From assembly GCA_029776255.1 (NCBI GenBank), contig JAKOTN010000159.1:124001-188000 (forward strand): DNA of 64,000 nucleotides. Reading direction: 5' to 3'. Shown piece by piece: positions 5,210 to 41,986 of this stretch (positions are counted from its first letter, which is position 1; each line of letters begins with the position of its first letter). The notes beneath the pieces were generated by a model that was given only the letters and a program-made list of their open reading frames with translations, searched no databases and had not been told where the DNA came from. The DNA is from Pseudomonadota bacterium (GTDB lineage: Bacteria; Pseudomonadota; Gammaproteobacteria; Burkholderiales; Rhodocyclaceae). The position numbers and the translations under genes were made by a program.

Positions 5210-5303
5210 GCCCCCCGTTTCACATGACGGCACATCCCGGACGAGGAGTGGACATGAAGGAATCGACGGCCTTCCGCTCGGCCCGCTGCCGCCGCTCGTT
5301 CAA

Positions 5304-5567: not shown

Positions 5568-5664
5568 GTAGTTTCATCCCCTATCACCGCTATCGCCCGT
5601 GCCACGCCTCTCACGCGCGCGGACGACGGGTGGAGAAATCATCTTGGCCGTGGCGACACCCGCG

Positions 5665-6513
5665 TTATCGTCCTACGAGGCAGCCGCTTGACGATGGCGA
5701 GGCGCCGTTCACGAGTTCCCGCAGCCGCTCCGGGTGGCTGTAAATCGCGCAGTCGGCATCGCGCAGGAAACCGACCAGCGTCAGGTTGAGACTTTCCGCC
5801 AGACGCACCGCGGCGGCGGTCGGCGCCGAGACGGCGGCGAGAATGCCATATCCCAATGCCGCCGCTTTTTGCACCATCTCGAAACTGGCGCGGCTGGTGA
5901 CGACGAGGGCGCCGTCCGCGACCGCCACGCCGGCTTTGGCGAGAGCGCCCAGCGTCTTGTCCAGGGCGTTGTGGCGACCCACGTCTTCACGCAGATGGCC
6001 GACGAGGCCGTCGCGGGCGACATGGGCGGCGGCGTGCGTCGCGCCCGTCACCCGTTGCAGCGACTGTTGCTCCGACACCCGGCGCATGCCCTCGAACAAG
6101 GCGGTGAGGGGAAACGGGACCCGGTCGACCGTTGGCGACGGCAGCGGCGGTAAATCGCGCGTCACCTGCGCCAGGCTTTCCACGCCGCACAAGCCGCATC
6201 CGGTGCGCCCGGCCATGCCGCGCCGCCGCGCCTTGAAGCGGGCGAACGCCTCGCCGGCAATATCGATGCGTAGCGCGATCCCGCGCGTCGACTCCACGGC
6301 CTCGATGGCGAACACCTCGCCGCGCCGCGCCACGATGCCTTCGCTCAGGCTGAAACCGAGCGCGAAATCCTCGAGGTCGGCGGGCGTCGCGAGCATCACG
6401 GCGTGAGCGACGCCATTGTATTCGAGGGCGACCGGCGTCTCTTCGGCCACCGCTTCGAGCCGTGGCGCCTCGCCCGGTCGCCGCACCGCGAGGAGTTGCA
6501 GCGGCGGTTTCAT
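5665..6513 (-). CDS. fdhD: Formate dehydrogenase sulfurtransferase FdhD (FdsC)
   Basis: FdhD/FdsC binds the bis-MGD cofactor and transfers sulfur needed for formate dehydrogenase activity. The 282-residue protein has LEDFALGFSLSEGI near residue 50 and the conserved cysteine loop GRTGCGLCGVESL, whose two cysteines correspond to the sulfur-carrying loop. The ATG at 6513 overlaps the fdsA stop codon by four bases (ATGA), so translation is probably coupled. Its position between fdsA and fdsD is the usual fdsGBACD order. Confidence 0.95.
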   Translation of the reverse strand: MKPPLQLLAVRRPGEAPRLEAVAEETPVALEYNGVAHAVMLATPADLEDFALGFSLSEGIVARRGEVFAIEAVESTRGIALRIDIAGEAFARFKARRRGMAGRTGCGLCGVESLAQVTRDLPPLPSPTVDRVPFPLTALFEGMRRVSEQQSLQRVTGATHAAAHVARDGLVGHLREDVGRHNALDKTLGALAKAGVAVADGALVVTSRASFEMVQKAAALGYGILAAVSAPTAAAVRLAESLNLTLVGFLRDADCAIYSHPERLRELVNGASPSSSGCLVGR

Positions 6514-9335
6514 GAGGCGTCGGGCGCTGCGACCCGCCGCGTGGCGCCCCCCCGCGCATCGCGCGCCCGTTCCGGCGGCTGGGCGATGCGCGCCACCTGC
6601 ACCGCGGTGACCTTGTACTCGGGGCAGTTGGTCGCCCAGTCCGAGTTGTCGGTGGTCAGCAGGTTGGCGCCGGACTCGGGAAAGTGGAAGGTGGTATAGA
6701 CCACACCCGGCTGAACGCGCTCGGTAACGGCGACGCGCAACGCCGTGTCGCCCGCCCGCGACTGGATGCCGACCCAGTCGCCGGCGGCGATGCCGCGCTC
6801 GGCGGCGTCGTGGGGGTGGATTTCCAGCACGTCCTCGCCGTGGAAGCGCACGTTCTCGGTACGCCGTGTCTGCACGCCGACGTTGTATTGCGACAGCACG
6901 CGGCCGGTGGTCAACAGCAGCGGAAACCGGCGCGTCACCTTCTCGTCGGTCGGCACGTACTGCGTGATCAGGAAGCGGCCCTTGCCGTGCGCGAAGCGTG
7001 TCGCATGCATGGTCGGCGTGCCTTCCGGCGCCTCGTCGTCGCAGGGCCATTGCAGGCTTCCGAGACGTTCGAGCTTGTCGTAGCTGACGCCGGCGAAGGT
7101 TGGCGTCAGGGCCGCGATTTCGTCCATGATCCGCGCCGGATGATCGTAATGCATCGGGTAGCCGAGCGCGTTGGACAGCGCCATGGTCGTCTCCCAGTCG
7201 GCCTTGCCGGCCAGCGGCGGCATCACCCGGCGCACGCGCGAAATGCGTCGCTCGGCGTTGGTGAAAGTGCCGTCCTTTTCGAGGAAGGAGGCGCCGGGCA
7301 GGAAGACGTGGGCGTATTTCGCCGTTTCGTTGAGGAAGAGATCCTGCACCACCACACACTCCATCGCCGCCAGCGCGGCCCGCACATGCCGCGTGTCGGG
7401 ATCGGACTGCGCCGGGTCTTCCCCTTGGCAATAGAGGCCGAGGAAAGTCGCGTCGAGCGCGGCGTCGAACATGTTCGGAATACGCAGCCCCGGCTCGGCG
7501 GACAGGGGCTTTCCCCAGGCACGCTCGAACGATTCGCGCGTCGGCGCATCGGAAACGTGGCGGTAACCAGGAAAGATGTCGGGAAAACTGCCCATGTCGC
7601 AGGAGCCTTGGACATTGTTCTGACCGCGCAGCGGATTGACGCCGACACCCTCGCGACCGATGTTGCCGGTGGCCATGGCCAGGTTGGCGATGGCGATCAC
7701 CGCCGTCGACCCTTGCGCATGCTCGGTCACGCCGAGACCGTAATAGATCGCGGCGTTGCCGCCGGTGGCGTAGAGCCGCGCCACGGCGCGCAGGTCGGCG
7801 GCGGCGACGCCGCTCTCGGCCGCCAGCGCCTCCGGCGAATTGCTCGGACGGCTGACGAATTCGCGCCACTCGGCAAACGATCGCGCTTCGCAGCGCGCGG
7901 CGATGAAAGCCTCGTCGAGCAGACCTTCGGTGGCGATGACATGCGCCAGGGCCGTCAGCACGGCGACGTTGGTGCCGGGGCGCAGCTTCAGATGATAGGC
8001 GGCCCTGGCGTGCGGCGCATTGACGATGTCGGTCTCGCGCGGATCGATCACCACCAGCTTCGCGCCGGCGCGCACGCGGCGCTTGAGGCGGGAAGCCACC
8101 ACCGGGTGCCCCGCGCCGGGATCGGCGCCGATGACGACGATGACATCGCTTTTATCCATCGACTTGAAAGTCTGCGTTCCCGCCGACGTGCCGAGCGTCT
8201 TGCCCAGGCCATAACCGGTGGGCGAATGGCAGACACGGGCGCAAGTGTCGACGTTGTTGTTGCCGAAAGCCGCCCGCACCAGCTTCTGCACCAGATAGTC
8301 CTCCTCGTTGGTGCAGCGGCTTGAAACCAGCGCGCCGATGGCATTCTTTCCATGGGTGTTTTGAATGCGGCGGAACTCGGCGGCGGTGTGAGCCAGCGCC
8401 TCCTCCCAGGAAACTTCGCGCCAGGCGTCCCGGATGGTGGCGCGGATCATCGGTTTGGTGACCCGATCCGGGTGCGTCGCGTAACCCCAGGCAAAGCGCC
8501 CCTTGACGCAAGCATGGCCCTCGTTGGCGCGTCCTTCTCTCCACGGCACCATGCGCACGACCCGCGTGCCTTTCATTTCGGCGCGGAAGCCGCAGCCGAC
8601 ACCGCAATAGGCGCAGGTGGTGACAATGCCGCGCTCGGCCTGCCCTTGCGCGACGACCGTCTTCTCCATCAGCGTCGCCGTCGGGCAGGCGTTGACGCAG
8701 GCCCCGCAGGAGACGCAGTCGGAGGCCATGAACGACTCCCCCTGCCCCGCCGTGACGCGTGAATCGAAGCCGCGGCCGGCGATGGCGATGGCGAAGCTGC
8801 CCTGCTGTTCCTCGCAGGCACGCACGCAGCGGTTGCAGACGATGCACTTGGCCGGGTCGTAGCTGAAGTACGGGTTGGAGGCGTCCGGCGTCGCCGTCAG
8901 GTGGTTGGCGCCGGCGAATCCGTAGCGCACCTCGCGCAGACCGACCACGCCGGCCATGGTCTGCAACTCGCATTGGCCGTTGGCGGCACAGGTCAGGCAA
9001 TCGAGTGGATGATCGGAAATGTAAAGTTCCATCACGTTGCGGCGCAGTTCGGCGAGCTTCGGCGTCTGCGTGCGCACGCGCATCCCCTCTTCCGCCGGCG
9101 TGGTGCAGGACGCCGGGTAGCCGCGCCGGCCCTCGATCTCAACCAGACACAGGCGGCAGGAACCGAAGGGCTTGAGCGTCTCCGTGGCGCAGAGCCTGGG
9201 AATCGTCACACCGGCGTCGACGGCGGCACGCATGAGCGAGGTGCCGGCCGGCACGGTGACGGTGAGTCCGTCAATGCTCAGCGTCACGGCGGTATCGGAG
9301 ACAACCGCCGGCGTGCCGTGATCGAGACCGTTCAT
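6510..9335 (-). CDS. fdsA: NAD-dependent formate dehydrogenase, alpha (catalytic) subunit
   Basis: The 941-residue catalytic subunit oxidises formate to CO2 at a molybdenum bis-MGD centre. Visible N- to C-terminal: a [2Fe-2S] ferredoxin domain (CRLCLVEIEG), the His/Cys cluster HPLDCLTCAANGQC, two [4Fe-4S] motifs (CIVCNRCVRAC and CVSCGACVNAC), the CAYCGVGC cluster of the molybdopterin domain, and the active-site CARVCHSPTGYGLG, so the metal ligand is cysteine, not selenocysteine. A MoCo-dinucleotide-binding C-terminal domain follows. The length is close to characterised FdsA proteins (about 960). The ATG at 9335 gives a sensible N-terminus and overlaps the fdsB stop by four bases; upstream in-frame sequence is not conserved. 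Confidence 0.96.
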   Translation of the reverse strand: MNGLDHGTPAVVSDTAVTLSIDGLTVTVPAGTSLMRAAVDAGVTIPRLCATETLKPFGSCRLCLVEIEGRRGYPASCTTPAEEGMRVRTQTPKLAELRRNVMELYISDHPLDCLTCAANGQCELQTMAGVVGLREVRYGFAGANHLTATPDASNPYFSYDPAKCIVCNRCVRACEEQQGSFAIAIAGRGFDSRVTAGQGESFMASDCVSCGACVNACPTATLMEKTVVAQGQAERGIVTTCAYCGVGCGFRAEMKGTRVVRMVPWREGRANEGHACVKGRFAWGYATHPDRVTKPMIRATIRDAWREVSWEEALAHTAAEFRRIQNTHGKNAIGALVSSRCTNEEDYLVQKLVRAAFGNNNVDTCARVCHSPTGYGLGKTLGTSAGTQTFKSMDKSDVIVVIGADPGAGHPVVASRLKRRVRAGAKLVVIDPRETDIVNAPHARAAYHLKLRPGTNVAVLTALAHVIATEGLLDEAFIAARCEARSFAEWREFVSRPSNSPEALAAESGVAAADLRAVARLYATGGNAAIYYGLGVTEHAQGSTAVIAIANLAMATGNIGREGVGVNPLRGQNNVQGSCDMGSFPDIFPGYRHVSDAPTRESFERAWGKPLSAEPGLRIPNMFDAALDATFLGLYCQGEDPAQSDPDTRHVRAALAAMECVVVQDLFLNETAKYAHVFLPGASFLEKDGTFTNAERRISRVRRVMPPLAGKADWETTMALSNALGYPMHYDHPARIMDEIAALTPTFAGVSYDKLERLGSLQWPCDDEAPEGTPTMHATRFAHGKGRFLITQYVPTDEKVTRRFPLLLTTGRVLSQYNVGVQTRRTENVRFHGEDVLEIHPHDAAERGIAAGDWVGIQSRAGDTALRVAVTERVQPGVVYTTFHFPESGANLLTTDNSDWATNCPEYKVTAVQVARIAQPPERARDARGGATRRVAAPDAS

Positions 9336-10825
9336 CGAAAGTCCTCCGGGAAATGGTCCAGCGCGGAGAGTACCGGCAGGGGCGTCATGCTGCCCATGGC
9401 GCACTGCGAACCGTGGATCATGGTGTCGCAGAGACTGCGCAGAAGTTCTGACTGTCCGGGCTTTCCGCCGCGGAGCCGGTCGATCACCTCGACGCCGCGC
9501 GTGGCGCCGATGCGGCAAGGGGTGCATTTGCCGCAGGATTCGCGGGCGCAGAAAGCCATCGCGTGGCGGGCCTGTTTCGCCATGTCCACCGTGTCGTCGA
9601 AAGCGACGATGCCGCCATGACCGAGCGTGGCGCCGATCGCGGCAAGGGTTTCGTAGTCGAGCACGGTGTCGAAGCGCGATGCCGGCAGGTAGGCCCCCAG
9701 AGGGCCGCCGACCTGCACGGCGCGCAAGGGCCGGCCCGAGCGCGAGCCGCCGCCGAAGTCATACAGCAGTTCGCGCAACGTCCGTCCGAACGGCACTTCG
9801 ACCAATCCGCCGTGCTTGAGGTTGCCGGCGAGCTGGAAAGGCAGCGTGCCGCGCGAGCGGTCGACGCCGAGTTCGCGGTAAGACGCCGCGCCGCGCGCCA
9901 GAATGTCGGGCACGCTGGCCAGGGTGACGACGTTGTTGACCACCGTCGGCTGCCCGAACAGCCCCGCGACGGCGGGCAACGGCGGCTTGGCGCGGACGAT
10001 GCCGCGCCTGCCTTCGAGGCTTTCGAGCAGGGCGGTTTCCTCGCCGCAGACATAAGCGCCCGCCGCCTTGCGCACCTCGATACGGAAACCGTCCAGCCAG
10101 TCGGTCGCGGCGGCCAGCGCGGCGTCGAGCGCCGCCAGGGCATGCGGATACTCGGAACGCACGTAGATATAAGCGCCGCTGGCGCCGACGGCGAGACCGG
10201 CAATCGCGATGCCTTCGATCAGGCCAAAGGGATCGGCTTCCATCGACAGCCGGTCGGCGAAGGTGCCGGAATCGCCTTCGTCGGCGTTGCAGACGATGTA
10301 TTTCCGCGCCGCCGGCGCGTCGAGCACGGTCCGCCATTTCAGGCCGGTGGGAAAAGCGGCGCCGCCACGGCCGCGCAAGCCCGATTCGATCACCACGCGG
10401 ACGATGTCGGCCGGCGCCATCGCCCGGGCCCGGGTCAGGCCCTCGCCGCCGCCGTTGGCCAGGTAATCGGACAGCGAGCGCGGATCGACGACGCCGATGC
10501 GCCGCATCGTCACGCGCCGTTGGCGCGCGAGATAGGGAATGGCCTCGCTCGGTCCCTGCCGCGAGCGATGAGCGCCGCCGGCGAGGAAACCGGCGTCGAA
10601 CAGACCCGGGACATCGGCGACCGTCACCGGACCATAGGCGATGCGCCCCGCCGCCGTCGCCACTTCGAGCAGCGGCTCCAGCCAAAACAGGCCGCGCGAA
10701 CCGTTGCGCACCAACGTCGGATCGGCGCCGCGCCGCCGGGCTTCGGCCAGCACCGCCGCCGCCACCGCGTCGGCGTCCAGCGCCAGCGCGGTCGAATCGC
10801 GGGGAACGAAAACGGTGACGCTCAT
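9332..10825 (-). CDS. fdsB: NAD-dependent formate dehydrogenase, beta subunit (NuoF-like)
   Basis: FdsB carries FMN, an NAD site and a [4Fe-4S] cluster and passes formate electrons to NAD+. The 497-residue protein has an N-terminal thioredoxin-like part and the NuoF signature set: GLRGRGGAAFPTGLKW and NADEGDSGTFADR for nucleotide/FMN binding, YVCGEETALLESLEG, and the cluster motif ESCGKCTPCRIG with a distal cysteine in GSQCAMG. The start is the ATG at 10825, overlapping the fdsG stop by four bases; a longer open frame upstream is a read-through into fdsG in another frame. Confidence 0.96.
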   Translation of the reverse strand: MSVTVFVPRDSTALALDADAVAAAVLAEARRRGADPTLVRNGSRGLFWLEPLLEVATAAGRIAYGPVTVADVPGLFDAGFLAGGAHRSRQGPSEAIPYLARQRRVTMRRIGVVDPRSLSDYLANGGGEGLTRARAMAPADIVRVVIESGLRGRGGAAFPTGLKWRTVLDAPAARKYIVCNADEGDSGTFADRLSMEADPFGLIEGIAIAGLAVGASGAYIYVRSEYPHALAALDAALAAATDWLDGFRIEVRKAAGAYVCGEETALLESLEGRRGIVRAKPPLPAVAGLFGQPTVVNNVVTLASVPDILARGAASYRELGVDRSRGTLPFQLAGNLKHGGLVEVPFGRTLRELLYDFGGGSRSGRPLRAVQVGGPLGAYLPASRFDTVLDYETLAAIGATLGHGGIVAFDDTVDMAKQARHAMAFCARESCGKCTPCRIGATRGVEVIDRLRGGKPGQSELLRSLCDTMIHGSQCAMGSMTPLPVLSALDHFPEDFR

Positions 10826-31115: not shown

Positions 31116-31266
31116 AATTTGTTTCCGCCCATCGAACGCGCCGCGACTTTTGGGCGCGAAATCGACGACAATTCCATTTTCGTTGAAAGTCTTCTTCTGA
31201 CCAGCGCCCTGCCCCGTTCGGCACGTGCCGACCTCCGCCATTGCCGTCCTTGACAGAGGCTGAACC

Positions 31267-31692
31267 ATGCCCCGCATTCACATCGATTTGCCCGAAAAAT
31301 TTTCTTTCTCAACGGAAATCGTACTTTATATCGGTCATATGAACTATGGCGGCCATCTTGACAACGCCCTGTTGCTGGCAGTGGTGTCGGAAGCGCGGCT
31401 GCGTTTTTTCAAGTCGCTGGGCTACACCGAACTGGACGTCGACGGCGTCGGCATCGTCGTCGCCGACGCGGCGGTGCAATACCGTTCCGAAGCCTTCCAC
31501 GGCGAGATAATGACGGTCGAAATGGCCGCCGGCGATTTCGGCGGCAAGGGTTGCGATCTGCCATGGCGAATGACCGACAAAGCAACGCGGCGTGAAGTCG
31601 CCCGCGGCAAGACCGGCATCGTCTTCTTCAATTACGGCGAGCGCAAGACCGCCGCCGTTCCCGAGAATTTCCGTCGTCGCGCCGGCGGCTGA
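31267..31692 (+). CDS. Hotdog-fold thioesterase family protein
   Basis: A 141-residue protein with the 4-hydroxybenzoyl-CoA thioesterase-type hotdog fold: VLYIGHMNYGGHLDNALLL replaces the family sequence D-x-x-G-H-V-N-N-x-x-Y, and VVADAAVQYRSEAFHGE matches the second half-sheet. The usual catalytic Asp is not obvious because the position before the GH pair is Tyr-Ile, so activity is uncertain. An acyl-CoA substrate is the family assumption. It converges on the CBS-nucleotidyltransferase gene with an 11-base gap. Confidence 0.8.
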   Translation: MPRIHIDLPEKFSFSTEIVLYIGHMNYGGHLDNALLLAVVSEARLRFFKSLGYTELDVDGVGIVVADAAVQYRSEAFHGEIMTVEMAAGDFGGKGCDLPWRMTDKATRREVARGKTGIVFFNYGERKTAAVPENFRRRAGG

Positions 31693-31703
31693 GCAACGGT
31701 GCG

Positions 31704-33164
31704 TTAGACGGGTGCATACGCCCGCGCCAGTCCTCTCTGCAAGCCTTGGATTTGCTTGAATGTTTCTTTAAGAATCAGCCGGTCGAGTTCGTGCAGGTCG
31801 TCGGGATCGACCCGGTTGCTCAATCCGCCCGGGCGACCGCTCATTTGTTGTTCGAGGCGAATGCGCTGGATGTGATGGAAGGCGTCGATCGTTGCCGCCA
31901 TCTGTTCCGGCGTATTGCCCATCCGTTCGCCAACCGCACGCAAGCGTTCGACGGTATTGGTATCGGAAATTCCTTGCGCTAAAGCGTGAATGCGCGCGGC
32001 GTCGACCAAGGGGCGCGAGCCATGTTTTTTTAGATCGATGGTATGCGGGAAATCCTTGCTGTATTCGTAGCGAAAACCGTTGCGCCAATTGAGCGGCGAC
32101 TCCCAGTTCAGCGTGTTTTCGACCATCGCGCGCAGGAACAGCGGATAGGATGGCGCCCTGGCGAGCAGCCAGTCGCGGAGTTCGGTGGCCAGCGCCTCGT
32201 GCCCGTAGAGCGCGCGGAAATCGAAGAAAATGCACGAATTGAGCAAAGCCTCCGGTTGCGGCGAAGTCAGCCAGGCGTCGAATGCCGTCCGCCATTCGTC
32301 GGCCGAAAGGCACCACTGCCGGTTGCCGGCCATGATATTTCCCTTGCACAAGGGGAAACCGCAGTCATCGAGTGCCTCGTTCACCGCCCGGGCGAATGGA
32401 AGAAAATCCTCGCGCAGGCTATCCGCGTGCGCCTTGGAATCGGCGGCGAATAACAAGCCGTTATCTTGATCGGTGGCCAGGGTTTGTTCGAGTCGGCCCT
32501 CCGAACCGAACACCAGCCAGCACCACGGCACATATGGCAATTCGAATTGTCCGGCGACCAACTCGATGACTTGCAGGGTCAACAGATCGTTGAGCGCGGA
32601 CAGACGGTGGCACAACGTTTCGGCGCTCAGGCGCTCGGCAACCAACCGGATCACGAAGCGTCGGATATCGCCGGCCAGTGCCACCAGCGTTGGCAGATCG
32701 CGCGCGGCGAGAATGGCGGTCACCAACTCGGCGCTTTGCACGCCGGGCAAGGTATACAAGTCGCTCTGCGATACCACGTTGAAAAAACGGCCGTCGGCTT
32801 CAGTGAGCACCAAATGGCGGACGCCGCGCCGGACCATCACCACGCTGGCTTGATGGACGGTGCTGTCCGCCGGAATGGTGATCAGGCCGCCGGTCATCAC
32901 CGTCACGATCGACGCCTGCAGGTCGCAGGCTTCGATGGCGATCCGGCGCACCACGTCCTTCAGGGTGACGATCCCCAACGGCATCCGGCCGCTGTCGTCG
33001 AGCACCACCACGGCATCGGCGCGCGTCTCGTCGAGCAGCAACAGCGTGTCGCGCACGCTGGCGCCAGGCGCGACGCTCAAGGCCTGCCGGCGAACCAGAT
33101 GCCGCAGTGCGGCGTACGGCGAAAACGAAGAAATCCGCCGCGACTCAGTATTTGAGTCGGGCAT
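31704..33164 (-). CDS. CBS-domain DUF294 nucleotidyltransferase-like protein
   Basis: A 486-residue soluble protein, last gene of the signalling operon. Residues about 25-140 are two CBS domains (adenine-nucleotide sensors), and from about 165 a DUF294 region with the nucleotidyltransferase signature FGSEGRLEQTLATDQDNGL (Gly210; metal-type Asp222 and Asp224). The C-terminal DUF294 part, related to the regulatory nucleotidyltransferase region of GlnD-like proteins, runs to about 440. It may modify a protein or a nucleotide in response to adenylate level, but no target is known. The start overlaps the exonuclease-fusion gene by 20 bases, so the two are translated together. Confidence 0.87.
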   Translation of the reverse strand: MPDSNTESRRISSFSPYAALRHLVRRQALSVAPGASVRDTLLLLDETRADAVVVLDDSGRMPLGIVTLKDVVRRIAIEACDLQASIVTVMTGGLITIPADSTVHQASVVMVRRGVRHLVLTEADGRFFNVVSQSDLYTLPGVQSAELVTAILAARDLPTLVALAGDIRRFVIRLVAERLSAETLCHRLSALNDLLTLQVIELVAGQFELPYVPWCWLVFGSEGRLEQTLATDQDNGLLFAADSKAHADSLREDFLPFARAVNEALDDCGFPLCKGNIMAGNRQWCLSADEWRTAFDAWLTSPQPEALLNSCIFFDFRALYGHEALATELRDWLLARAPSYPLFLRAMVENTLNWESPLNWRNGFRYEYSKDFPHTIDLKKHGSRPLVDAARIHALAQGISDTNTVERLRAVGERMGNTPEQMAATIDAFHHIQRIRLEQQMSGRPGGLSNRVDPDDLHELDRLILKETFKQIQGLQRGLARAYAPV

Positions 33165-35340
33165 GGTAGGTCCGCTGGCTGGCTTCGCGCGCCTGCCGCA
33201 GCGTGGTGATTCCTTTTTCCGCCAGCAGGGGAAGCATTTTCAGGAACACCTCGCCGGTGACCATCGCATCGCCCAAGGCGGTGTGCCGTCCGAATACCGA
33301 AACGCCCAGTCGTTCCGCAATGGCTTCCAGCCGATGGCTGCTCTGGTTCGGATGCAGTACCGCCGACAGCAACAGGGTATCGAGCACCGGCTGTTCGAAA
33401 CGGATACCGGTCTGTTTTTCCTTCAGTTGCAGGAAACGCATGTCGAAGGCGGCGTTATGGCCAACCAGCACGGTATCGGCGCAAAACGCGTGGAAAGCGG
33501 GCAGCACGCTGTCGATGGCCGGCTGCCCGACCAGCAATTCGGGAGTAATGCCGTGAATCCCGATCGATTCGCGCGACAATTCCCGGCGCGGGTCGATCAA
33601 TTGATCGAAGCACTCGTGTTTCAACAAGCGACGATTGACGATCCGGGTGGCACCGATCTGGATGATTTCGTCGCCTTCGGACGGTTGCAGGCCGGTGGTT
33701 TCGGTGTCGAAGATGGTGTACGACAGTTCGGCGAGCGGTCGGTCATCCAGTTCATGGCCGCTGCTCGACCAAAGGAACAGATCGAAATCGTAGAACTCCG
33801 GCCGGTCGCCTTCATCGGCGGCGACAATGGCCCGCGGCAGATCCGTCGGCGCCTCGCAGGCCGGCAGGATGGTCCGGAAAAAGGCGCGATGCGATACCCG
33901 TTCCCGCTGGAACCAGATGTCGCCATTGCAGCGCTCCATCACCTCGATGACGCTCAGCGGCGACGATTCGCTGCCGATGATCATCGGCTCCTGTAGCCAG
34001 CTCATCGCCGTTTCGTTGTTCATGAACGTGCCGAGCCAGGACAGATCGAACTGTGCCAACTGGCCGGCGCGAATCAAGGATAAACGCACCTCGCGCACTT
34101 CGTATTCGTCCTGAAGACGCAATGCCAGGTAACGCAGGGCCTGTAGCAGTCCAAAACTGTCGACGCGCAGCCACAAGTCGTCGTCGACGGTCTCGGTTTT
34201 TACCGCCAGCGGCCGCGACTCGTTCGCGCGCCGCTCGCCGATGCGCCGCGCCGCCACCTCGACCAGTTCGGCGCCGAGAATTTCCTCGAGCAGCCAGCGT
34301 TCGCGCAGATCGTTGGAAAATGCCGCCGCCGCGTTCTCGAACCGCGCGGACAGGGTTTTCGCTTCGTCGCGAATGGCGTCCAGGAAGCGGTCACGCTGTT
34401 GCGGCGGCATGTCGGAAAAATCGGACAACATTTCGGCCGCCGCGCGGATGCTGCCCAAGGGTCCGCGCCCGCCTTCGATCAGCGACTGGATCAGCGCGTC
34501 GCGGCGAGCATGCCGTTCATTACTGCCGGTGACATCGTCCAGAACGAGCACGAAACCGGTCACCGAGAGAGCGCCGACCTGTGCGCTGTGCGCGGCGTCG
34601 CCGCCGAGAACCGGCGACATGTGGGCGCGCAACAGCCGTCCGGCGCGCGTGGCGGTGACGAACTGCGCCGAGCCGATCAGTTTCTTGCTCTCCGCGCCCG
34701 TCTGCTCGCGACTGGCCTGCTGCAAACGCTCAAGCGCGTGCTCGATCAGGGCGCGGTCGAAAACGGTGTAAATCGAACGGCCAAGCCCCAGCAGATCGGC
34801 ATTGCTACCGTCCGCGCCGGCCGAGAGTTCCTGTTTGGCGCGCTGGTTGTACAGCAGCACGCGGCCATCGAGGTTGCAGACCACCACGCTCTGGCTCAGG
34901 TCGGCCATCAACGCCGCCAAGCGCCCACGCTCCTCCTCAAGCGACGCACGCGCGTCGCGCACCCGTTCGGCGACATCGCTCTGCAAGGCTTCGCGCACCG
35001 CCAGCAACTGGTTGGCGGCCTGGCCAAGCGCTTGCAGCTCGCGGGAATCATACGCGGCAAGACGCAGACCGCTGTGCGCCACGGCGGCGGTCAGTTCTTC
35101 GGCCATCCGCAGCGGCGCGGCCACGTACAGGGCGTGCAGTCGGACAACGCCCCAGCCGGCTACCGCGCACGCCGCCATCGCCAGAACCAGCAGGGAGACG
35201 ATCCGTTCTTCCGGCGTTCGGGCGGCACCGTGCGCCTCGGCTTCGCTGGCCAGCATCAAGGCCGCCGTCGCGCCGACCACCAGCAGCACGAACAGGCCGG
35301 CAAAGACCAAGGCGACGATCAGCTTGCGCGTCGGTTTCAT
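33145..35340 (-). CDS. Membrane PAS/pseudo-histidine-kinase fused to a DEDDh 3'-5' exonuclease
   Basis: A 731-residue fusion. Two membrane helices at the N-terminus (about 8-30 and 48-68) are followed by a HAMP/coiled-coil stretch, a PAS-like domain (about 145-270), a region aligned with HisKA and ATPase domains (about 280-500), and a C-terminal DnaQ-type exonuclease with all DEDDh residues: FDTETTG (Asp545, Glu547), GHNAAFD (Asp633), HTALGDA (His686, Asp691). The kinase-like part reads EGGRGPLGSI where the phospho-accepting His should be, and lacks the GTGLGL box, so it is probably not a kinase. It starts directly at the stop codon of the receiver gene. Function unknown; signal-dependent nuclease action on nucleic acid or nucleotides is inference. 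Confidence 0.85.
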   Translation of the reverse strand: MKPTRKLIVALVFAGLFVLLVVGATAALMLASEAEAHGAARTPEERIVSLLVLAMAACAVAGWGVVRLHALYVAAPLRMAEELTAAVAHSGLRLAAYDSRELQALGQAANQLLAVREALQSDVAERVRDARASLEEERGRLAALMADLSQSVVVCNLDGRVLLYNQRAKQELSAGADGSNADLLGLGRSIYTVFDRALIEHALERLQQASREQTGAESKKLIGSAQFVTATRAGRLLRAHMSPVLGGDAAHSAQVGALSVTGFVLVLDDVTGSNERHARRDALIQSLIEGGRGPLGSIRAAAEMLSDFSDMPPQQRDRFLDAIRDEAKTLSARFENAAAAFSNDLRERWLLEEILGAELVEVAARRIGERRANESRPLAVKTETVDDDLWLRVDSFGLLQALRYLALRLQDEYEVREVRLSLIRAGQLAQFDLSWLGTFMNNETAMSWLQEPMIIGSESSPLSVIEVMERCNGDIWFQRERVSHRAFFRTILPACEAPTDLPRAIVAADEGDRPEFYDFDLFLWSSSGHELDDRPLAELSYTIFDTETTGLQPSEGDEIIQIGATRIVNRRLLKHECFDQLIDPRRELSRESIGIHGITPELLVGQPAIDSVLPAFHAFCADTVLVGHNAAFDMRFLQLKEKQTGIRFEQPVLDTLLLSAVLHPNQSSHRLEAIAERLGVSVFGRHTALGDAMVTGEVFLKMLPLLAEKGITTLRQAREASQRTYHARLKY

Positions 35341-35709
35341 CTACATTCCGAGAAGCTTGCGCACCTCGGCGAGCAACTCCTTGGTCGAAAAGGGTTTGGT
35401 CATGTAGCCGTCGGCGCCCAGGCCCAACCCTTTGCTGACTTCGGTATCGCGCCCCTTGGCGGTTAACATCAGGATGCGCGTGTCGCTCAGATCGGGGTCG
35501 GCGCGCACCGCCTGACAAACGTCGAAACCGTTCATCTTCGGCATCATCACGTCGAGCAGCACCAGATCCGGCTTTTCGCCGCGCACCTTGGCCAACGCCT
35601 CTTCGCCATCGCCGGCCACCTGTACGTCGAAGCCTTCTCGACGCAGCAGGAATTCGATCGAGATGACGATGTTTTGCTCGTCGTCGGCAATCAGTATTTT
35701 TTTGCTCAT
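35341..35709 (-). CDS. Single-domain response regulator
   Basis: A 122-residue CheY-like receiver without output domain. It has the acidic pair in ILIADDEQ, the phosphorylated Asp53 in LLDVMMPKMNGFD, the Thr in MLTAKG and the Lys in YMTKPFS. It lies between the transporter-kinase and the exonuclease fusion in one operon and is the natural phosphorylation target of that kinase. With no DNA-binding domain, it must act by protein contact, perhaps on the pseudo-kinase fusion next door. Start at ATG 35709 matches the receiver fold; six extra codons are possible. Confidence 0.93.
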   Translation of the reverse strand: MSKKILIADDEQNIVISIEFLLRREGFDVQVAGDGEEALAKVRGEKPDLVLLDVMMPKMNGFDVCQAVRADPDLSDTRILMLTAKGRDTEVSKGLGLGADGYMTKPFSTKELLAEVRKLLGM

Positions 35710-35755
35710 CAGTACTCCGATCATCAAAAAACACGCGGGGCGGGCAGGCCGCTGG

Positions 35756-38515
35756 TCAAGCCGGCCCCGCCTCTAGCGGCTGCCGCGCGGACGTCAAGGG
35801 CAAGGTGAAGCGAAACGTCGCCCCCTCCCCGACCGCGCTCTCCACCCACAAACGGCCGCCGAAGTGTTCGACAATCCGGCGGCTGATCGGCAGACCAAGG
35901 CCGGTACCCGATGGCTTGGCCGTCATCGTGTCGCCGACCTGGCGGAATTTTTCGAAAATGAGTTGTTGATCTTCGGGGCGGATGCCGGGTCCGTTGTCGG
36001 CGACGCTGACTTCCAGCGCCTCGCCCAGCACCCTTAGCCGCACCCGCACTTCACCGCTGCCCGGGGTCAGGAATTTGACCGCGTTGGACAACAGATTCAG
36101 CATCACTTGAATCAGCCGGTCGCGATCGGCCAGTATCAGCGGCGAGTTCTCGGGCAGATCGACGATGACCTGCGCTTCTTTCTCGCGGAAAAGCTGGCTG
36201 GTGGCGGCAACGGACCGGTCGATCACTTCCGTCAGATCGAGCTCACAGCCGTTCCAGTCGGCCCGGCCGGACTCGATCTTGGCCAGATCCAGCGTCTGGT
36301 TGATCAGCCGCGTCAGGCGCTCGGTCTCGCTGACCACCAGACCGAGAAAACGCTGCCGGTCGGCCAGATGCATCTTCGGATCGTCGTGCAGCAATTCCGA
36401 AAAAGCGCGGATCGACGTCAGCGGCGTGCGCAGCTCGTGCGTCACCGAGGACATGATGTCATCCTTGACGCGATCGAGTTCCTTGAGCCGCTCGTTGGCT
36501 TCCTGCAATTCCGTCGTCGCCGCCTGCAACTGACGCGATTTGCGCTCCAGTTCGCGGCTGTAGGAGCGCAACTGCGAGGCTTCGTCGAGGATGTTCATCA
36601 CTTCTTCGATGCTCAAGGGTTCTTCCTTGGCCACCGAGGCGACCATCACCCGCGCCGAGGCGCTGCCGATGGCGCCGGCGAGCAGGGACTCGGCAAACTG
36701 CACCAGACGGGCGTCCGCCTCCATTTCGTCGGCGCTGCCGGCACCGTGCCGCTTGGCGAAGGCGGCGAACGCCGTTTGTGCCCGGCCCGGCCCGAGAAAG
36801 CGCCCGACCAGATCCCGCAGATCGCCCACCCGCGCGCGGCCACGCCACAACGCCGCGCCGCGTTGGCCGGTGTCCTTCAGGGCATCGACGAAAACCGTCG
36901 CCTGCGTCGCCTCGGCGACCATCGGTGGCCGCAGCAGCGAAACGCCGACATAAGCCCCGATATTGGCGAAAAAACTCCAGAACAAACAATGCGATATTTC
37001 GTCAACACCAGTCAGTCCGAACAATTGTTGCGGCCGCAGGAGATCGATTCCGAACAGCCCTTGGGTAAGGAAATCGGCGGGCAGCCAGCCGGACTTGGCG
37101 AACGACGGCAGCAACAGGGTGTAAGCCCAGACCAGGAAGCCCGCCGACAAGCCGGCCATCGCCCCGCCACGGGTACCGCCGCGCCAGTACATGCCGCCGA
37201 TCAGCGCCGGCGCGAACTGCGCCACCGCCGAAAAACTGATCAGGCCGATGGCCACCAGCGCATAGGCCTCGCCGGCGAGACGGAAGTACAGGTAGCCGAG
37301 CAACAGAATGAGCGCAATGGCGCCGCGCCGAATCGTCAGCAACAAGCGCGACAGATCGCGTGAGTCGTCCAGCAGGGTTTTGTGGGAACGCAGCAGCAGC
37401 GGCATGACCAGGTCGTTGCAGACCATGGTCGACAAGGCAATGGTTTCGACGATGACCATGCCGGTGCCGGCCGACAGCCCGCCGATGAACACCAGCAGCA
37501 CCAACCCTTCATGCCGGAGCGCCATCGGCAGCGTGAGCACGAAGGTATCGGCATCGACGCCCTGCCCCGCGAAATGCAGCAGGCCGCCAAGCGCGATCGG
37601 CAGCACGAACAGATTGATCAGCAACAGATATAAGGGAAAAAGCCACGCCGCGCGCCGGAGATGTTCTTCATTGACGTTTTCGACGACGGCGATCTGAAAC
37701 TGCCGCGGCAGAAAAAGCAGCGCCATCGCCGAGAGGAACAACAGCGAAAACCAACTGGTATAGCCTTGACCGGAAGGCACCGCGCCGAGAAGTTGCCGGA
37801 GCGACGGATCGTCGAGCGCGCGCTGAAAAATGTCGCCGAAACCGTTGTACATGCCATAAGTGACGAAAACGCCGACGGCGGTGAAGGAAACCAGCTTGAC
37901 GCAGGATTCCAGGGCGATCGCCGCGACCATGCCTTCGTGCCGCTCGGTGGCGTCGAGATGCCGCGTTCCGAAAACGATGGTGAACGCGGCGAGGATCAGG
38001 GCCACGTAAAAACTGATGTCGGCCGCGACGGAGGTTGTCGCGCTGCGTCCCGGCATCACGATATCCGGATAGCCGAGCAGCAGGCTGATCGAACTGGACA
38101 CCGCCTTGAGTTGCAGGGCGATGTACGGAATGACGCCGACCACGGCGATGATCGTCACCAGCCCGCCCAGACGGTGGCTTTTGCCGTAGCGCGAGGAAAT
38201 GAAGTCGGCGATCGACGTGATGCGGTTGGCCTTGACGATACGAATCATCTTCAGCAACAGAAACCAGCCGAGCGCCATCACCAGCGTCGGTCCGAGATAC
38301 ACCGGCAAGAAACCGATGCCCGACACCGCCGCCCGCCCGACGCTGCCATAGAAGGTCCAGGTGGTGCAGTAGACGGCCATCGACAAGGCATAGGTGCTGG
38401 GATTGGCGATAAGCGACCGCCCCCGGTCGGCGCGCTGGTCGCCCCACCAGGCCACCGCGAACAGCAGGCCGAGATAGACCAGCGAAACGGCAATGATCAC
38501 CGACAGATCGAGCAT
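35756..38515 (-). CDS. SLC5 (sodium:solute symporter)-histidine kinase
   Basis: A 919-residue sensor. Residues 1 to about 500 are a 12-13 helix sodium:solute symporter domain (STYALSMAVYCTTWTFYGSVG, ADFISSRYGKSHRLGG), followed by an intracellular linker with coiled coil and a full kinase core: H-box SSVTHELRTPLTS with His693, N box NLLSNAVKFL, G1 VADNGPGI and G2 GTGLGLPISRRI. CbrA and CrbS proteins of gammaproteobacteria share this architecture and respond to histidine or acetate; the ligand here is unknown. No receiver is fused; the next gene encodes one. The small membrane protein gene lies nine bases upstream. Confidence 0.93.
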   Translation of the reverse strand: MLDLSVIIAVSLVYLGLLFAVAWWGDQRADRGRSLIANPSTYALSMAVYCTTWTFYGSVGRAAVSGIGFLPVYLGPTLVMALGWFLLLKMIRIVKANRITSIADFISSRYGKSHRLGGLVTIIAVVGVIPYIALQLKAVSSSISLLLGYPDIVMPGRSATTSVAADISFYVALILAAFTIVFGTRHLDATERHEGMVAAIALESCVKLVSFTAVGVFVTYGMYNGFGDIFQRALDDPSLRQLLGAVPSGQGYTSWFSLLFLSAMALLFLPRQFQIAVVENVNEEHLRRAAWLFPLYLLLINLFVLPIALGGLLHFAGQGVDADTFVLTLPMALRHEGLVLLVFIGGLSAGTGMVIVETIALSTMVCNDLVMPLLLRSHKTLLDDSRDLSRLLLTIRRGAIALILLLGYLYFRLAGEAYALVAIGLISFSAVAQFAPALIGGMYWRGGTRGGAMAGLSAGFLVWAYTLLLPSFAKSGWLPADFLTQGLFGIDLLRPQQLFGLTGVDEISHCLFWSFFANIGAYVGVSLLRPPMVAEATQATVFVDALKDTGQRGAALWRGRARVGDLRDLVGRFLGPGRAQTAFAAFAKRHGAGSADEMEADARLVQFAESLLAGAIGSASARVMVASVAKEEPLSIEEVMNILDEASQLRSYSRELERKSRQLQAATTELQEANERLKELDRVKDDIMSSVTHELRTPLTSIRAFSELLHDDPKMHLADRQRFLGLVVSETERLTRLINQTLDLAKIESGRADWNGCELDLTEVIDRSVAATSQLFREKEAQVIVDLPENSPLILADRDRLIQVMLNLLSNAVKFLTPGSGEVRVRLRVLGEALEVSVADNGPGIRPEDQQLIFEKFRQVGDTMTAKPSGTGLGLPISRRIVEHFGGRLWVESAVGEGATFRFTLPLTSARQPLEAGPA

Positions 38516-38524
38516 GGCCGTCGC

Positions 38525-38725
38525 CTATCGGACGTGCCGCTCGATCGCCCAGGCGATCAAGGCGATGACCATCGCCCAGGCGAAGAAAACATAACCGTAA
38601 ATGAGAGGAATGCCGGCGATGGCCGCGTGCCGGTCGAACAGCGACAAGAGCGGATAGTTGAACAACACGCAGCCCACCAGGAATGCCGCCGCCAATCGAT
38701 CGCCCGCGAGTATCCTACGATGCAT
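38525..38725 (-). CDS. Small two-helix membrane protein
   Basis: A 66-residue protein with two hydrophobic segments (AAAFLVGCVLFNYPLLSLF and IPLIYGYVFFAWAMVIALIAWAIE), ending in a basic tail. It resembles the short companion subunits encoded before solute:sodium symporters (DUF3311/DUF485-like) and is likely the partner of the transporter-kinase nine bases downstream. The ATG at 38725 follows AAGGAGGAG at good spacing. It is the first gene of the operon. Confidence 0.78.
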   Translation of the reverse strand: MHRRILAGDRLAAAFLVGCVLFNYPLLSLFDRHAAIAGIPLIYGYVFFAWAMVIALIAWAIERHVR

Positions 38726-39206
38726 TTTCTCCTCCTTTTGTCGACAGTCGCCGGCGCCTCGCCGCGCTTTGCAGGCGGTGGTGGTGCCGTGCCGCTTCTC
38801 CTCTGGATGCACACCCGAAGACTTGCCCGGCACTTCGACAACATGCCCGGGACACCCGGCCGAGGCGATCGCTTTCCCGGAAGGCGAACGATGAAAGGCC
38901 GTTCGTCGGACGAAGGATTCGCGGTTTCGGCGCGGTTGTTTCGTGTTTTGTTATGTTCTCGCCCCGCATTGTCGGCAATCGGATGCTGCGACGCAATACC
39001 TTCCACCCGAATCGGTGCATCGACGGTTCGTCCGACAGCCGCTTCGTGCGTCCTAACGACGCATTTTCGGCGGTTGATACATGAGCGATGCGTCGGCGCT
39101 CCGGCGGGCTAGCAACCGAACGTCCAATGCTCGATTTTCGATTGACCTTGGCGCCCGCGCGCGGTAATACTTTGTTAAGCCTTGCCATTTCCATCTGAAA
39201 GCTGCC
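38726..39206. other. Divergent intergenic region, no gene seen
   Basis: 481 bases between the minus-strand signalling operon and the plus-strand envelope module. Both promoters should be here. Long open frames cross it on both strands but have Arg/Ser-rich shadow composition. I saw no clear promoter pair, RNA gene or repeat. Confidence 0.5.
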
Positions 39207-40325
39207 ATGTCCAAAACGGCCAAGATCCTCGTCACCCTGCTACTGCTGGTCGTTTTCGCCGGCTCGCTCGCCCTGGCCTGGCGCGAACAGCGGGCGACAG
39301 CGGAGAGCCGGCCGCCGGGAGCCGCCAGCACGCCCCTTGAAGGCGTGATAGCGGTCGACGTCGAACCTTTTTTTCAGGATGAGCGGGTGCGGAAAATCCT
39401 GGCCGCCCATCGTCTGCCGGTACAAGTGCTACGCATGGGCAGCCGCGACATGCCCGGCAAGGTGGCCACCGGCACGCCGCCGGATTTCCTCTTCGCCAGC
39501 GGCGTCGTGGCGGCCAACGAGATCGTCGAGACGGCACGCAAGGCCAACATCGCGGTCACGCAGGTCGCGCCGTTCCATACCCCGCTGGTCGTCGCTTCCT
39601 GGGAGCCGATTGCCGGCATCCTAGTCGCCAATGGCTTGGCCGCGCCCATGCAGCCGCGCGTGTACAGCCTGAACATGGCCGGACTGACCGAGACGATGCT
39701 GGCCAAGAAACGCTGGCGCGACCTTCGGCAAGCGAACGCCTACGAGGTGTCTCGCGCGGTCCTGGTTTCCACCACCGATGTGCGGCGCAGCAACTCGGCG
39801 GCGATGTACCTGGCGTTGACCGGCTACGCGCTGACCGGCGAAATCATCGACAACCGCGCCACCGCGCGCGCTACCGCCGCCCGGCTGGCGGAGCTGTTCA
39901 AGCGTCAGGGCTTTCAGGAAAACTACGTGAATGGCAATTTCGACGACTACGTGGCCATCGGCATCGGCAAGGCGCCACTGGCTTTCATCTATGAAAATCA
40001 GTTGGTTAGTCATGCAATGACGAAAAAAGGCATCAGCGCCGACATGGCGTTGCTCTACCCGAAACCGACCATCGTCAACAAGGTGGTCTTCGTCGCCACC
40101 AACGAACGCGCCAAGGCGCTTGGCGAATTGCTGGCCTCCAACGCGGAATTGCAGGGCATCGCGATCGATCACGGCTTTCGTACCGCCGATACCGACCGTT
40201 TCGTCAATGCCGTCAAACCGACCGGCCTGGCCGTTCAACCGCGGATCGTGGACGTGGTGGACCCACCATCGGCCGGGGTGATGGCCGAAATGATCGATGT
40301 GGTTAGCAAGGAGATGACTCAATGA
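39207..40325 (+). CDS. Membrane-anchored periplasmic binding-protein-like protein
   Basis: A 372-residue protein with an N-terminal membrane anchor or signal (ILVTLLLLVVFAGSLALAW) and a long extracytoplasmic domain that reads like a solute-binding protein: VDVEPFFQDERV near the start, PPDFLFASG, and a second lobe around LLYPKPTIVNKVVFV. There is no associated ABC permease or ATPase gene. Its stop overlaps the start of the next gene (ATGA), whose product has a second, different binding-protein domain and a VWA domain. It is probably part of an envelope complex, not a transporter; ligand unknown. Confidence 0.7.
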   Translation: MSKTAKILVTLLLLVVFAGSLALAWREQRATAESRPPGAASTPLEGVIAVDVEPFFQDERVRKILAAHRLPVQVLRMGSRDMPGKVATGTPPDFLFASGVVAANEIVETARKANIAVTQVAPFHTPLVVASWEPIAGILVANGLAAPMQPRVYSLNMAGLTETMLAKKRWRDLRQANAYEVSRAVLVSTTDVRRSNSAAMYLALTGYALTGEIIDNRATARATAARLAELFKRQGFQENYVNGNFDDYVAIGIGKAPLAFIYENQLVSHAMTKKGISADMALLYPKPTIVNKVVFVATNERAKALGELLASNAELQGIAIDHGFRTADTDRFVNAVKPTGLAVQPRIVDVVDPPSAGVMAEMIDVVSKEMTQ

Positions 40326-41986
40326 GTGCCCACCGTTGGCTCGCGGCGGCGGCCGCCATTTGGCTGTTGGCGACCGGTTGCGGCCGTCAGGACACTTCCA
40401 CCGGCCGTTCGGCGGGTTCCGACGACGCCGGCGCACCCGTGTTCCGGGTGCTGGCGACCAGCGATCTGCGCGATGCATTGCCCTTGCAGGAGATGGTCGA
40501 GAAAGCCACCGGTGTGAAATTGCGCTTCACGTTCGGCGGCACCATGGAAAGCACCGAGGCGGTGCTCGCCGGAAAGGCCGACGCCGACGCGGCGTGGTTC
40601 GCCAACGCCAGATACCTGCTATCGGACGCCCAAGGCCAGAGTCGCGTCAAATTGCAGGAAAAGATCGCCCTCTCGCCGATCGCCGTCGGCGTCAGCGAAT
40701 CGGCGGCCAATCAACTCCACTGGACCGACCCGGCCATCGCCGACCGGCTAACCTGGAAAGACATCGCCGCCGCCGCCAAGGCCGGCAAGCTGACCTATGC
40801 GCTGTCCAATCCCGCCACGTCCAACCAGGGGTTCATGGCGTTGATGGGCGTCGTCGCCGCCACCAGCCAGAAAGCCGAGGCGCTGACCGCCGCCGATGTC
40901 GACCGCCGGGCCATTGCCGACTTCATCAAGGGCTACAAACTGCCCGGCGACAATTCGAGCGATCTGTCGGAGCAGTTCATTGCCCAGCAGGGCACGCGGG
41001 TGAACGCCTTCATCAACTACGAGAGTTGGTTGCTGTCGCTCAACGCCTCCGGCCGGCTGCGCGAGAAACTGACGCTGATTTACCCGCGCGAGGGAGTCAG
41101 CACCGCCGACTACCCGCTGTTGTTGTTGAACGACGCCCGACGCGCCGATTATCTGAAAGTGGTCGATTACCTCAAAAGCGAACCCGCGCAACTGTGGCTT
41201 GCCCGGCAAACCTTGCGGCGCCCGATCAAGCCCGAACTCGCCGCTCGCGTCAGCGAACTGCCGTCGCACACCGGCCTGCGCGTCGAACTGCCCTTCTCCA
41301 CCGACCGGGCGCTGGCCGATGGCCTGATCGACGCCTATCTCAACGAATTCCGCACCCCGATCGCCAGCACCTTCGTGCTCGACACCAGCGGCAGCATGGC
41401 CGGCGCCACGCGTCGTGGACAGTTGGTACAGGCCATCCACTACATCGCCGGCGCCGACAATTCGCTCACCGGTCGCATCGCCAAACTCACCAGCCGGGAA
41501 AAACTGTGGTTGCTGCCGTTCGCCGACCAGCCCCGGCAGCGCACCGCGTTCACCGTTCCCGCCGGCTCGCCGCCGGCGCGGGGCGTGCAGTCGGTAGCCG
41601 ACAGCAAGGCCAAACAACAAGTGTTGGCCGAAGTGCGTGACTACGCGGACGGTTTGCGGATGACCGGCGGCACGGCGCTGTACGACGCCGTTTATCTGGC
41701 ACTGGTGGAAATGCTCGAAGAACAGAAAAAGAATCCCGACTACCGTTACTCGGTGGTGGCTTTCACCGACGGTGAAAACAATCAGGGCCGCGGCCTCGCC
41801 CGTTTCAAGGCCGATTACGCGGCGCTACCCGAGGACGTGCGCGGCATCCCGGTGTTCATGGTGCTCTATGGCGAAGCCCGGGAGGCCGATTTGAAGGCGT
41901 TGGTGGCCACGACCGGCGGCAAGGTGTTCGACGCCCGCAACACGCCGCTGTACCGCGTGTTCCGTGACATCCGGAGTTACCAGTGA
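40322..41986 (+). CDS. Lipoprotein with binding-protein and VWA domains
   Basis: A 554-residue exported protein. A lipoprotein-like signal ends LLATGC. Residues about 35-310 form an extracellular solute-binding domain (FRVLATSDLRDALPL, FGGTMESTEAVLAGKADADAAW), and residues about 345-550 a von Willebrand factor A domain with the MIDAS sequence FVLDTSGSMAG (Asp354), Thr in MTGGTALYD and VVAFTDGENNQGRG. Proteins with this pair of domains occur beside XpaC- and TelA-like proteins in other bacteria, but no mechanism is established. It overlaps both neighbours by four bases, so the three genes are translationally linked. Confidence 0.82.
   Translation: MSAHRWLAAAAAIWLLATGCGRQDTSTGRSAGSDDAGAPVFRVLATSDLRDALPLQEMVEKATGVKLRFTFGGTMESTEAVLAGKADADAAWFANARYLLSDAQGQSRVKLQEKIALSPIAVGVSESAANQLHWTDPAIADRLTWKDIAAAAKAGKLTYALSNPATSNQGFMALMGVVAATSQKAEALTAADVDRRAIADFIKGYKLPGDNSSDLSEQFIAQQGTRVNAFINYESWLLSLNASGRLREKLTLIYPREGVSTADYPLLLLNDARRADYLKVVDYLKSEPAQLWLARQTLRRPIKPELAARVSELPSHTGLRVELPFSTDRALADGLIDAYLNEFRTPIASTFVLDTSGSMAGATRRGQLVQAIHYIAGADNSLTGRIAKLTSREKLWLLPFADQPRQRTAFTVPAGSPPARGVQSVADSKAKQQVLAEVRDYADGLRMTGGTALYDAVYLALVEMLEEQKKNPDYRYSVVAFTDGENNQGRGLARFKADYAALPEDVRGIPVFMVLYGEAREADLKALVATTGGKVFDARNTPLYRVFRDIRSYQ

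Follow-up and report, generated by a model that had tools for sequence, protein, structure and literature searches.

A five-gene operon of Candidatus Accumulibacter with an SLC5-type histidine kinase, a lone receiver, a pseudokinase-exonuclease fusion and a CBS-DUF294 nucleotidyltransferase

A stretch of 64,000 nucleotides from a genome of Candidatus Accumulibacter (the whole stretch is called the window below) carries on its minus strand, at positions 31704-38725, five open reading frames (ORFs) encoding in this order a two-helix membrane protein of 66 amino acids (aa), a 919-aa SLC5-type histidine kinase, a 122-aa lone receiver, a 731-aa fusion of a pseudo-histidine kinase with a DEDDh exonuclease, and a 486-aa CBS-DUF294 nucleotidyltransferase. 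The five genes stay linked in distant genomes, the residues of the kinase, receiver, nuclease and nucleotidyltransferase are intact and those of the pseudo-kinase are dead, a hairpin of the fusion resembles that of the operon kinase, and elsewhere one effector is swapped for another. The best model for this arrangement, to which we give a probability of about 0.58, is that a signal would run from the kinase through the receiver to the hairpin of an interchangeable effector. We infer that the kinase with its small helix-hairpin partner would sense a short carboxylate, most probably acetate, or the flux of such a compound and would phosphorylate the lone receiver, and that the phosphorylated receiver, acting without DNA binding, would dock on the hairpin in the pseudo-kinase part of the fusion, much as DivL reads DivK~P, and would thus switch the attached exonuclease. 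The CBS-DUF294 protein may belong to this circuit too, as a nucleotidyltransferase which is of the GlnE kind and senses adenylates, and the hairpin would be a plug-in adaptor, by which such a kinase-receiver pair may elsewhere be coupled to a hairpin-bearing ScfR regulator.

Linkage of the five genes and the sensor module

The genes follow each other with spacings of 9, 46, 0 and -20 bases, and the initial annotation, which had read them as a single minus-strand run, is confirmed by the ORFs in coordinates, strand and spacing. Its view that the run is one unit also held in 78 diverged fusion loci (fusion under 80% identical, neighbours within a radius of 8 kb) and in several gene orders: the receiver directly adjoins the fusion at 66 of them, the CBS-nucleotidyltransferase lies within the radius at 58, the SLC5 kinase at 54 and a homologue of the two-helix protein at 53, the kinase count being biased upward because 14 of the 163 loci gathered (L232-L245) were fetched for holding a kinase and three came from plasmid hits. 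Of these 163 loci 158 were kept (fusion match above 240 bits and over more than 350 residues; L174, L176 and L183 are among the five dropped), and a receiver was called only above 100 bits, a weak one in L127 being counted as missing. An ActP-like permease is found within the radius at 31 of the 78 loci and acs at 16, and with such neighbours in a part of the relatives the suggestion of acetate as the likely field is upheld.

In Paracoccus denitrificans the five genes overlap and are ordered CBS-X-kinase-receiver-fusion, X being the two-helix protein, and the full set is found on a plasmid of strain PD1222 as genes PDEN_RS25395-25415; other lineages have the order receiver-fusion-X-kinase, and L122 holds a supercluster of acs, X, kinase, receiver, fusion, nucleotidyltransferases, exonuclease, ActP and DUF4212. 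The linkage survives deep divergence and comes in more than one gene order, which exceeds chance; that it outlived the rearrangements points to a functional unit. Where a fusion has a receiver and no local kinase, a kinase was found elsewhere in 15 of the 17 genomes searched. A search of 28 genus members (own genome included) found the full-length fusion in every one; it is also present in 8 of 9 others of the family and in one of 24 from other families of the order, and at E<=1e-8 its N-terminal part has matches in 34 of 398 sampled genomes of the phylum (own included; four at under 60 bits) and in 20 of 369 genomes of the class. Many genus mates carry a fusion paralogue of about 50% identity and some a copy at 67%; divergent fusions (29-32% identity) lie between receiver and kinase in L407 and L408.

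The kinase (35756..38515, minus strand, catalytic His693) exceeds the Pfam cut-offs with HisKA and HATPase, as its operon partners do with Response_reg, RNase_T, CBS, DUF294 and DUF294_C. Its assignment to the SLC5 type stands, not on the Pfam SSF model, which gave no match to it even at E<=5, but on the match of residues 4-473 to the solved "histidine kinase" chain 10ed_A (E 1.9e-73), presumably CbrA, and on how it aligns with other SLC5 kinases. The N-terminal part is about 35-49% identical to hybrid SLC5 kinases, and most of these align with it to about residue 658, beyond the expected STAC region, as we presume the portion between the SLC5 and kinase parts to be. The catalytic His is kept in 69/69 homologues together with the N, G1 and G2 boxes, Pfam found no fused receiver domain within the 919 residues, and no second SLC5 kinase was found in the genome. 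The receiver (35341..35709, minus strand, Response_reg E 1.5e-30) had been called a lone one with no output domain, and Response_reg is indeed the only domain of its 122 residues, counted from an ATG (an alternative TTG would add six); D9, D10, the phospho-acceptor D53 and K105 are found in 95/95 homologues and position 83 is T or S in all 95.

The two-helix membrane protein (38525..38725, minus strand, an ORF of 66 codons from its ATG) gave no credible sequence match in the PDB, only two rows at chance level. By its size, position and two-helix look it resembles CbrX, a published counterpart which binds CbrA in a structure solved by cryo-electron microscopy (PMC13022988). On plasmid pAZKH of Azoarcus sp. 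KH32C (L185, 8238-11180) a 980-aa protein joins an SLC5 sensor, 59% identical to that of the window, to GGDEF-EAL, and a 64-aa CbrX-like protein precedes it; this fusion is another type of output for this kind of sensor.

The pseudo-kinase, its hairpin and the exonuclease

The fusion (33145..35340, minus strand) had been described as a membrane PAS/kinase-like protein with a DEDDh exonuclease, a description which is supported by its fold and by RNase_T (E 2.3e-34), whereas the kinase part is dead and only the exonuclease lies above the Pfam cut-off, PAS_4 (E 0.13) and HisKA (E 0.0017) falling below theirs. In the AlphaFold model (mean predicted local distance difference test, pLDDT, 78.2; predicted template modelling score, pTM, 0.41) two N-terminal helices of membrane length, presumed to be transmembrane, are followed by a coiled, HAMP-like region, a PAS-like sheet (residues about 148-270, 34531..34899, minus strand, placed by the secondary structure of the model), a two-helix hairpin, an ATPase-like sandwich and the exonuclease. 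Histidine kinases and DnaQ-type nucleases are the leading Foldseek matches; whole-chain superpositions on kinases are poor (root-mean-square deviation mostly 18-28 in the leading rows) because the domains are mobile at this pTM, and statements are made here at the level of domains only. In VIA the exonuclease fold scores Z 24.2 against a PolC chain and 21.1 against 1j53, the epsilon exonuclease, and it fills the VIA list, so that missing kinase rows there carry no meaning.

The hairpin (residues 271-346, 34303..34530, minus strand) corresponds to the dimerization and histidine phosphotransfer (DHp) part of a kinase and has Glu289 at the phospho-His position, where 158 homologues show E in 126, D in 24 and H in none. 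The degenerate ATP-binding (CA) domain behind it (residues 350-497, 33850..34293, minus strand) keeps the order of helices and strands in the model, with the N and G1 boxes replaced and with W435 in 118/119 (an earlier count, made on 119 of 120 extracted fusions); among the aligned homologues the ATP boxes and the catalytic His are lost. The exonuclease domain (3'-5', residues 540-731, 33148..33723, minus strand) has the D, E, D, H, D residues and the RNase-H-like fold of a DEDDh enzyme: D545, E547 and D633 are kept in 158/158 homologues, H686 and D691 in 157/158, counts which exclude the degenerate group L174, L176 and L183. Judged by these residues, the kinase part is not a kinase; it is a predicted pseudo-histidine kinase next to an intact nuclease site, and it still aligns with the core of the operon kinase at an HHalign probability of 99.4%.

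A profile of the fusion hairpin gave 45.2 bits with the operon kinase and 52.4-57.9 with five diverged homologues, against at most 14.2 bits with 20 other kinases of the genome, which were drawn from 44 other kinase places, and the ATP-binding part had no such preference (13.7 bits for the operon kinase vs 17.0 for others). The same profile scored 34.7-55.5 bits on 97 fusion-associated kinases, 30.6-42.3 on three non-hybrid kinases linked to ScfR and below zero on four hybrid SLC5 kinases, among them the MxtR-like L327; the frame-broken L326 has no score. It appears from these profiles that the putative receiver-docking part is the part which stayed alike between fusion and kinase.

As to the substrate, the fusion could be an RNase which, close to the membrane and on sensing of the carboxylate, trims or degrades selected mRNAs or else cleaves linear dinucleotides (pGpG, for example), a tentative idea which we hold at well under even odds and which is compatible with the best model. 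The intact DEDDh site with its PolC/epsilon fold agrees with it, and the GGDEF-EAL output of the 59% identical Azoarcus sensor hints at dinucleotide chemistry. Fold and motif are nevertheless the same for RNA, DNA or other phosphodiesters, and the Pfam search found no RNA-binding domain. A role in mRNA decay was put forward for PP_0353 of Pseudomonas putida as speculation by its authors (PMC9927547).

Exchange of effectors and comparison with known systems

In Neorhizobium and Paracoccus there are loci at which such a kinase-receiver pair has an ScfR regulator of the XRE type as neighbour, and no fusion match was found within 5 kb there. ScfRs of this family (RamB, PrpR, PccR) share with the fusion, in those phylum members where such a kinase-receiver pair is the neighbour, an extra DHp hairpin, placed between the DNA-binding and acyl-CoA parts; E3U26_20570 of Paracoccus ferrooxidans is an example. 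Among ScfRs sampled from 200 genomes, with 16 stretches fetched by choice, the hairpin reaches at least 10 bits in 9 of 10 distinct linked regulators and stays below this threshold in 36/36 without a kinase-receiver neighbour (Fisher value 9e-9, which ignores sampling biases and kinship); the linked L361 scores 9.1 bits and the highest unlinked one, L368, 8.3 bits. For most unlinked ScfRs the flank covered was short, about 1.5 kb, and in L406 some 4 kb separate receiver and ScfR. In this sample L321-L323 and L329 had been reached through the kinase, L329 was dropped as a duplicate, and L322 is closely related to L323. Eight further linked ScfRs, likewise found via the kinase, have the hairpin in 8/8. 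The hairpin His is retained in 19/19 linked ScfR rows (three of them near-identical Paracoccus), and the L407 and L408 fusions and the L425 row have no usable residue at this column. ScfRs whose hairpin keeps the His and whose neighbours are a lone receiver and an SLC5 kinase of the non-hybrid type are seen at L321 (2687-4276) and L329 (6015-7301), and more at L360-L365, L369, L406, L409 and L411-L416.

Taken from the side of the kinase, 299 genomes gave 43 full-length non-hybrid SLC5 matches, with a fusion at the same locus in 19 and an ScfR in 15 (14 of the 15 with a hairpin of at least 10 bits), and with a fusion elsewhere in the genome in six; G514 and G460 were assigned from coordinates only. 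On our reading of these sequences the hairpin would be a receiver-docking adaptor set on interchangeable effectors, phosphorylatable in ScfR and not in the fusion.

Parts of this picture are already known: the SLC5 kinases, CbrX as a hairpin protein, and the control of the exonuclease/CBS pair by MxtR/ErdR. The P. putida genes PP_0354/PP_0353 make up one operon, and the PP_0354 promoter is bound by ErdR, which is the regulator belonging to MxtR, an SLC5 kinase (PMC9927547, PMC8402216). This pair has in common with the present operon an RNase_T exonuclease and a CBS protein, and PP_0354 is acetate-induced; it differs in that the operon is described without receiver or kinase and PP_0353 is reported with an RNase_T match only. 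The CrbS/CrbR system (MxtR/ErdR; Vibrio, Pseudomonas) likewise shares the SLC5 kinase, the acetate field and the exonuclease and CBS pair in its regulon (PMC9927547, PMC8402216), and it has a hybrid kinase and a LuxR-type DNA-binding regulator, whereas here the kinase is non-hybrid, the receiver is lone and a membrane PAS-pseudokinase carries the exonuclease as a fused part. CbrX-CbrA/CbrB of Pseudomonas has in common a two-helix peptide gene directly upstream of an SLC5-STAC kinase (PMC6591292, PMC13022988); unlike the kinase of the operon, CbrA has a PAS domain and the sigma-54 activator CbrB as partner. The initial annotation had supposed that a solute-sensing path ending in nuclease and nucleotidyl transfer is new: the link between an SLC5 kinase and the exonuclease-CBS pair is in fact published (PMC9927547, PMC8402216), while the wiring of kinase, receiver, pseudokinase and exonuclease looks new. 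Neither a histidine-kinase/exonuclease fusion nor a hairpin-bearing ScfR was met in the open-access literature among the matches listed. DivL of Caulobacter hands its signal to another kinase, and unlike it the pseudo-kinase here bears a nuclease. Common to DivK-DivL (PMC4211667) and to the fusion are a kinase fold with the catalytic His lost (0/158 here) and a single-domain receiver read by a pseudo-histidine kinase, the latter being proposed here by analogy.

Ordinary control of the CrbS/CrbR kind, by which the kinase would act through an unlinked DNA-binding regulator on genes that are merely co-transcribed targets, draws support from the MxtR/ErdR transcriptional control of the exonuclease/CBS pair in Pseudomonas. 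We regard it as unlikely: the kinase has no fused receiver and is the sole SLC5 kinase found in the genome, and the lone receiver adjoins the fusion at most of the diverged loci. As partner beside the kinase the operon holds only the lone receiver and nothing of the LuxR type, CrbR, which need not be linked, not having been searched for genome-wide. The CrbR (ACTU) motif core was not seen upstream of acs or of the operon, a weak test as the pattern comes from five examples; with the same pattern the core occurs 2 times vs 1.53 expected in L115 and 11 times vs 6.1 expected in the window, a number reached in 5 of 100 shuffles.

Several points weigh against the proposed path from kinase to receiver to hairpin. 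The similarity of the hairpins could stem from descent of the fusion from such a kinase rather than from a kept docking surface, and six of the 20 control kinases are weak controls, 14 of the 20 reaching at least 12 bits with a kinase-hairpin profile. Covariation between receiver and hairpin (134 pairs, effective 62.5) gave no enrichment at the docking surface; the receiver-kinase positive control (99 pairs, effective 40.5) failed too, and the test thus says nothing. L174, L176 and L183 (24-25% identical) have degenerate exonuclease residues, and both of their enzyme parts look dead. Three of the 43 non-hybrid kinases have neither effector, G685 having a weak match of 46.7 bits elsewhere. The acs and ActP genes, found only in 16 and 31 of the 78 loci, are both missing at the window locus, and deletion of the exonuclease or of the CBS protein in P. 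putida is reported without an acetate phenotype (PMC9927547). Lone fusion paralogues, with neither receiver nor kinase close by, occur as well, and the genome of the window has one. This copy (L114, G000:C41:1-12000, positions 926-3091) is about 50% identical, and no receiver, kinase or nucleotidyltransferase was seen in the stretch fetched.

It had been asked whether homologues of the five genes are scattered independently in related genomes. Overall they are not, with the reservation that kinase and fusion lie apart in the 6/43 cases given above and that the lone paralogues exist. These paralogues would suit an explanation by shared regulation only, in which the neighbourhood is conserved and no direct signalling link joins its members, yet the specificity of the hairpin and the swap of effectors speak against it and we consider it very improbable.

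The nucleotidyltransferase and the setting of the operon

The last gene (31704..33164, minus strand) encodes a CBS pair, a DUF294 nucleotidyltransferase and DUF294_C, as given by Pfam, by the motif GS..GR.E ... D.D followed by a C-terminal helical domain, and by an AlphaFold model of mean pLDDT 86.8; G220, S221, R224, E226, D232 and D234 are kept in 73/73 homologues. The model has matches to CBS domains and also, along 381-406 aligned columns, to each of the two halves of GlnE, with which it shares the fold of nucleotidyltransferase and helical domain (TMq 0.48-0.49); in contrast to GlnE, to which it is 12-15% identical, it has a CBS pair in the place of the second half. Because of this modelled fold, a protein is a likelier target of the DUF294 enzyme than nucleic acid. 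The statement that the enzymes of the operon act on nucleic acid or nucleotides is therefore retained in part: the nuclease fusion is a likely end point, and for the nucleotidyltransferase a protein target is more likely.

Relatives of the CBS-DUF294 protein are found in 44 of 143 class genomes, and at 30 of their loci (one per genome, own included; flanks of 1.5 kb) a DEDDh exonuclease is present in 19 and an ActP-like permease in 26. The genome of the window holds on another contig (L115, G000:C77:28000-42000, positions 3293-10694) a set of acs, cNMP-CBS-DUF294, a stand-alone exonuclease, an ActP-type SSF permease and DUF4212. L118, L122, L232-L236 and L239-L244 have a second, N-terminally short nucleotidyltransferase match of about 310-340 residues, in which no CBS pair was seen; it lies between the fusion and the full-length CBS-DUF294 gene and has a cNMP part in most.

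The pairing of nucleotidyltransferase and exonuclease is thus wider than the operon and leaves room for a write-and-erase role, in which the CBS-DUF294 enzyme would attach a nucleotide to a protein, with the SLC5 kinase, ActP, Acs and a PII-like protein as candidates, the DEDDh domain, as a phosphodiesterase, would remove the nucleotide and the receiver would set the balance, comparable to the opposing activities of GlnE and GlnD. This role, for which the neighbour counts at the 30 loci, the GlnE fold and the second set in the genome can be quoted, seems rather doubtful: at 11 of the 30 loci the flanks are without an exonuclease, and we know of no DEDDh enzyme that strips nucleotides from proteins. 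The single mutants of P. putida differ, moreover, the exonuclease mutant being poor on pyruvate and the CBS-protein mutant not (PMC9927547).

On the upstream side of the operon a gap of 481 bp (38726..39206), presumed by its position to hold the operon promoter, separates it from a divergent ORF, and a promoter scan of 31200-39300 found no sigma-70-like site on the minus strand, the sole site being on the plus strand. Downstream, a convergent thioesterase-like gene (31267-31692) closes the unit. Terminator-like sites number 13 vs 8.4 (standard deviation 3.0) in shuffles. The divergent pair at 39207-41986 encodes a 372-aa protein with no Pfam match and a 554-aa protein which, judged by eye, is substrate-binding-like with a VWA-like C-terminus. 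A reading of the locus as a defence system was rejected, the PADLOC matches being a generic exonuclease, receiver and kinase.

To return to the preferred path from kinase through receiver to hairpin, a wider proposal can be attached to it, in our judgement evenly balanced between true and false: the non-hybrid SLC5 kinases would be a further branch of SLC5 signalling, in which a lone receiver would carry the state of a membrane transceptor to a DHp hairpin on unlike effectors, by a His relay in ScfR and by acidic docking in the exonuclease, and which together with the GlnE-like nucleotidyltransferase would end in phosphodiester and nucleotidyl-transfer chemistry and not in transcription. If the model is true, it would explain the role and control of the unexplained exonuclease and CBS-DUF294 genes in the acetate regulon. 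It would also give another example beside DivL of a receiver-reading pseudo-histidine kinase, here with an enzyme as output, and a portable DHp adaptor joining one kind of sensor to unlike effectors. As the arrangement suggests, nutrient signals such as acetate may reach an enzyme directly rather than a gene regulator, and in Accumulibacter such a circuit may play a part in how carbon is taken up during phosphorus removal.

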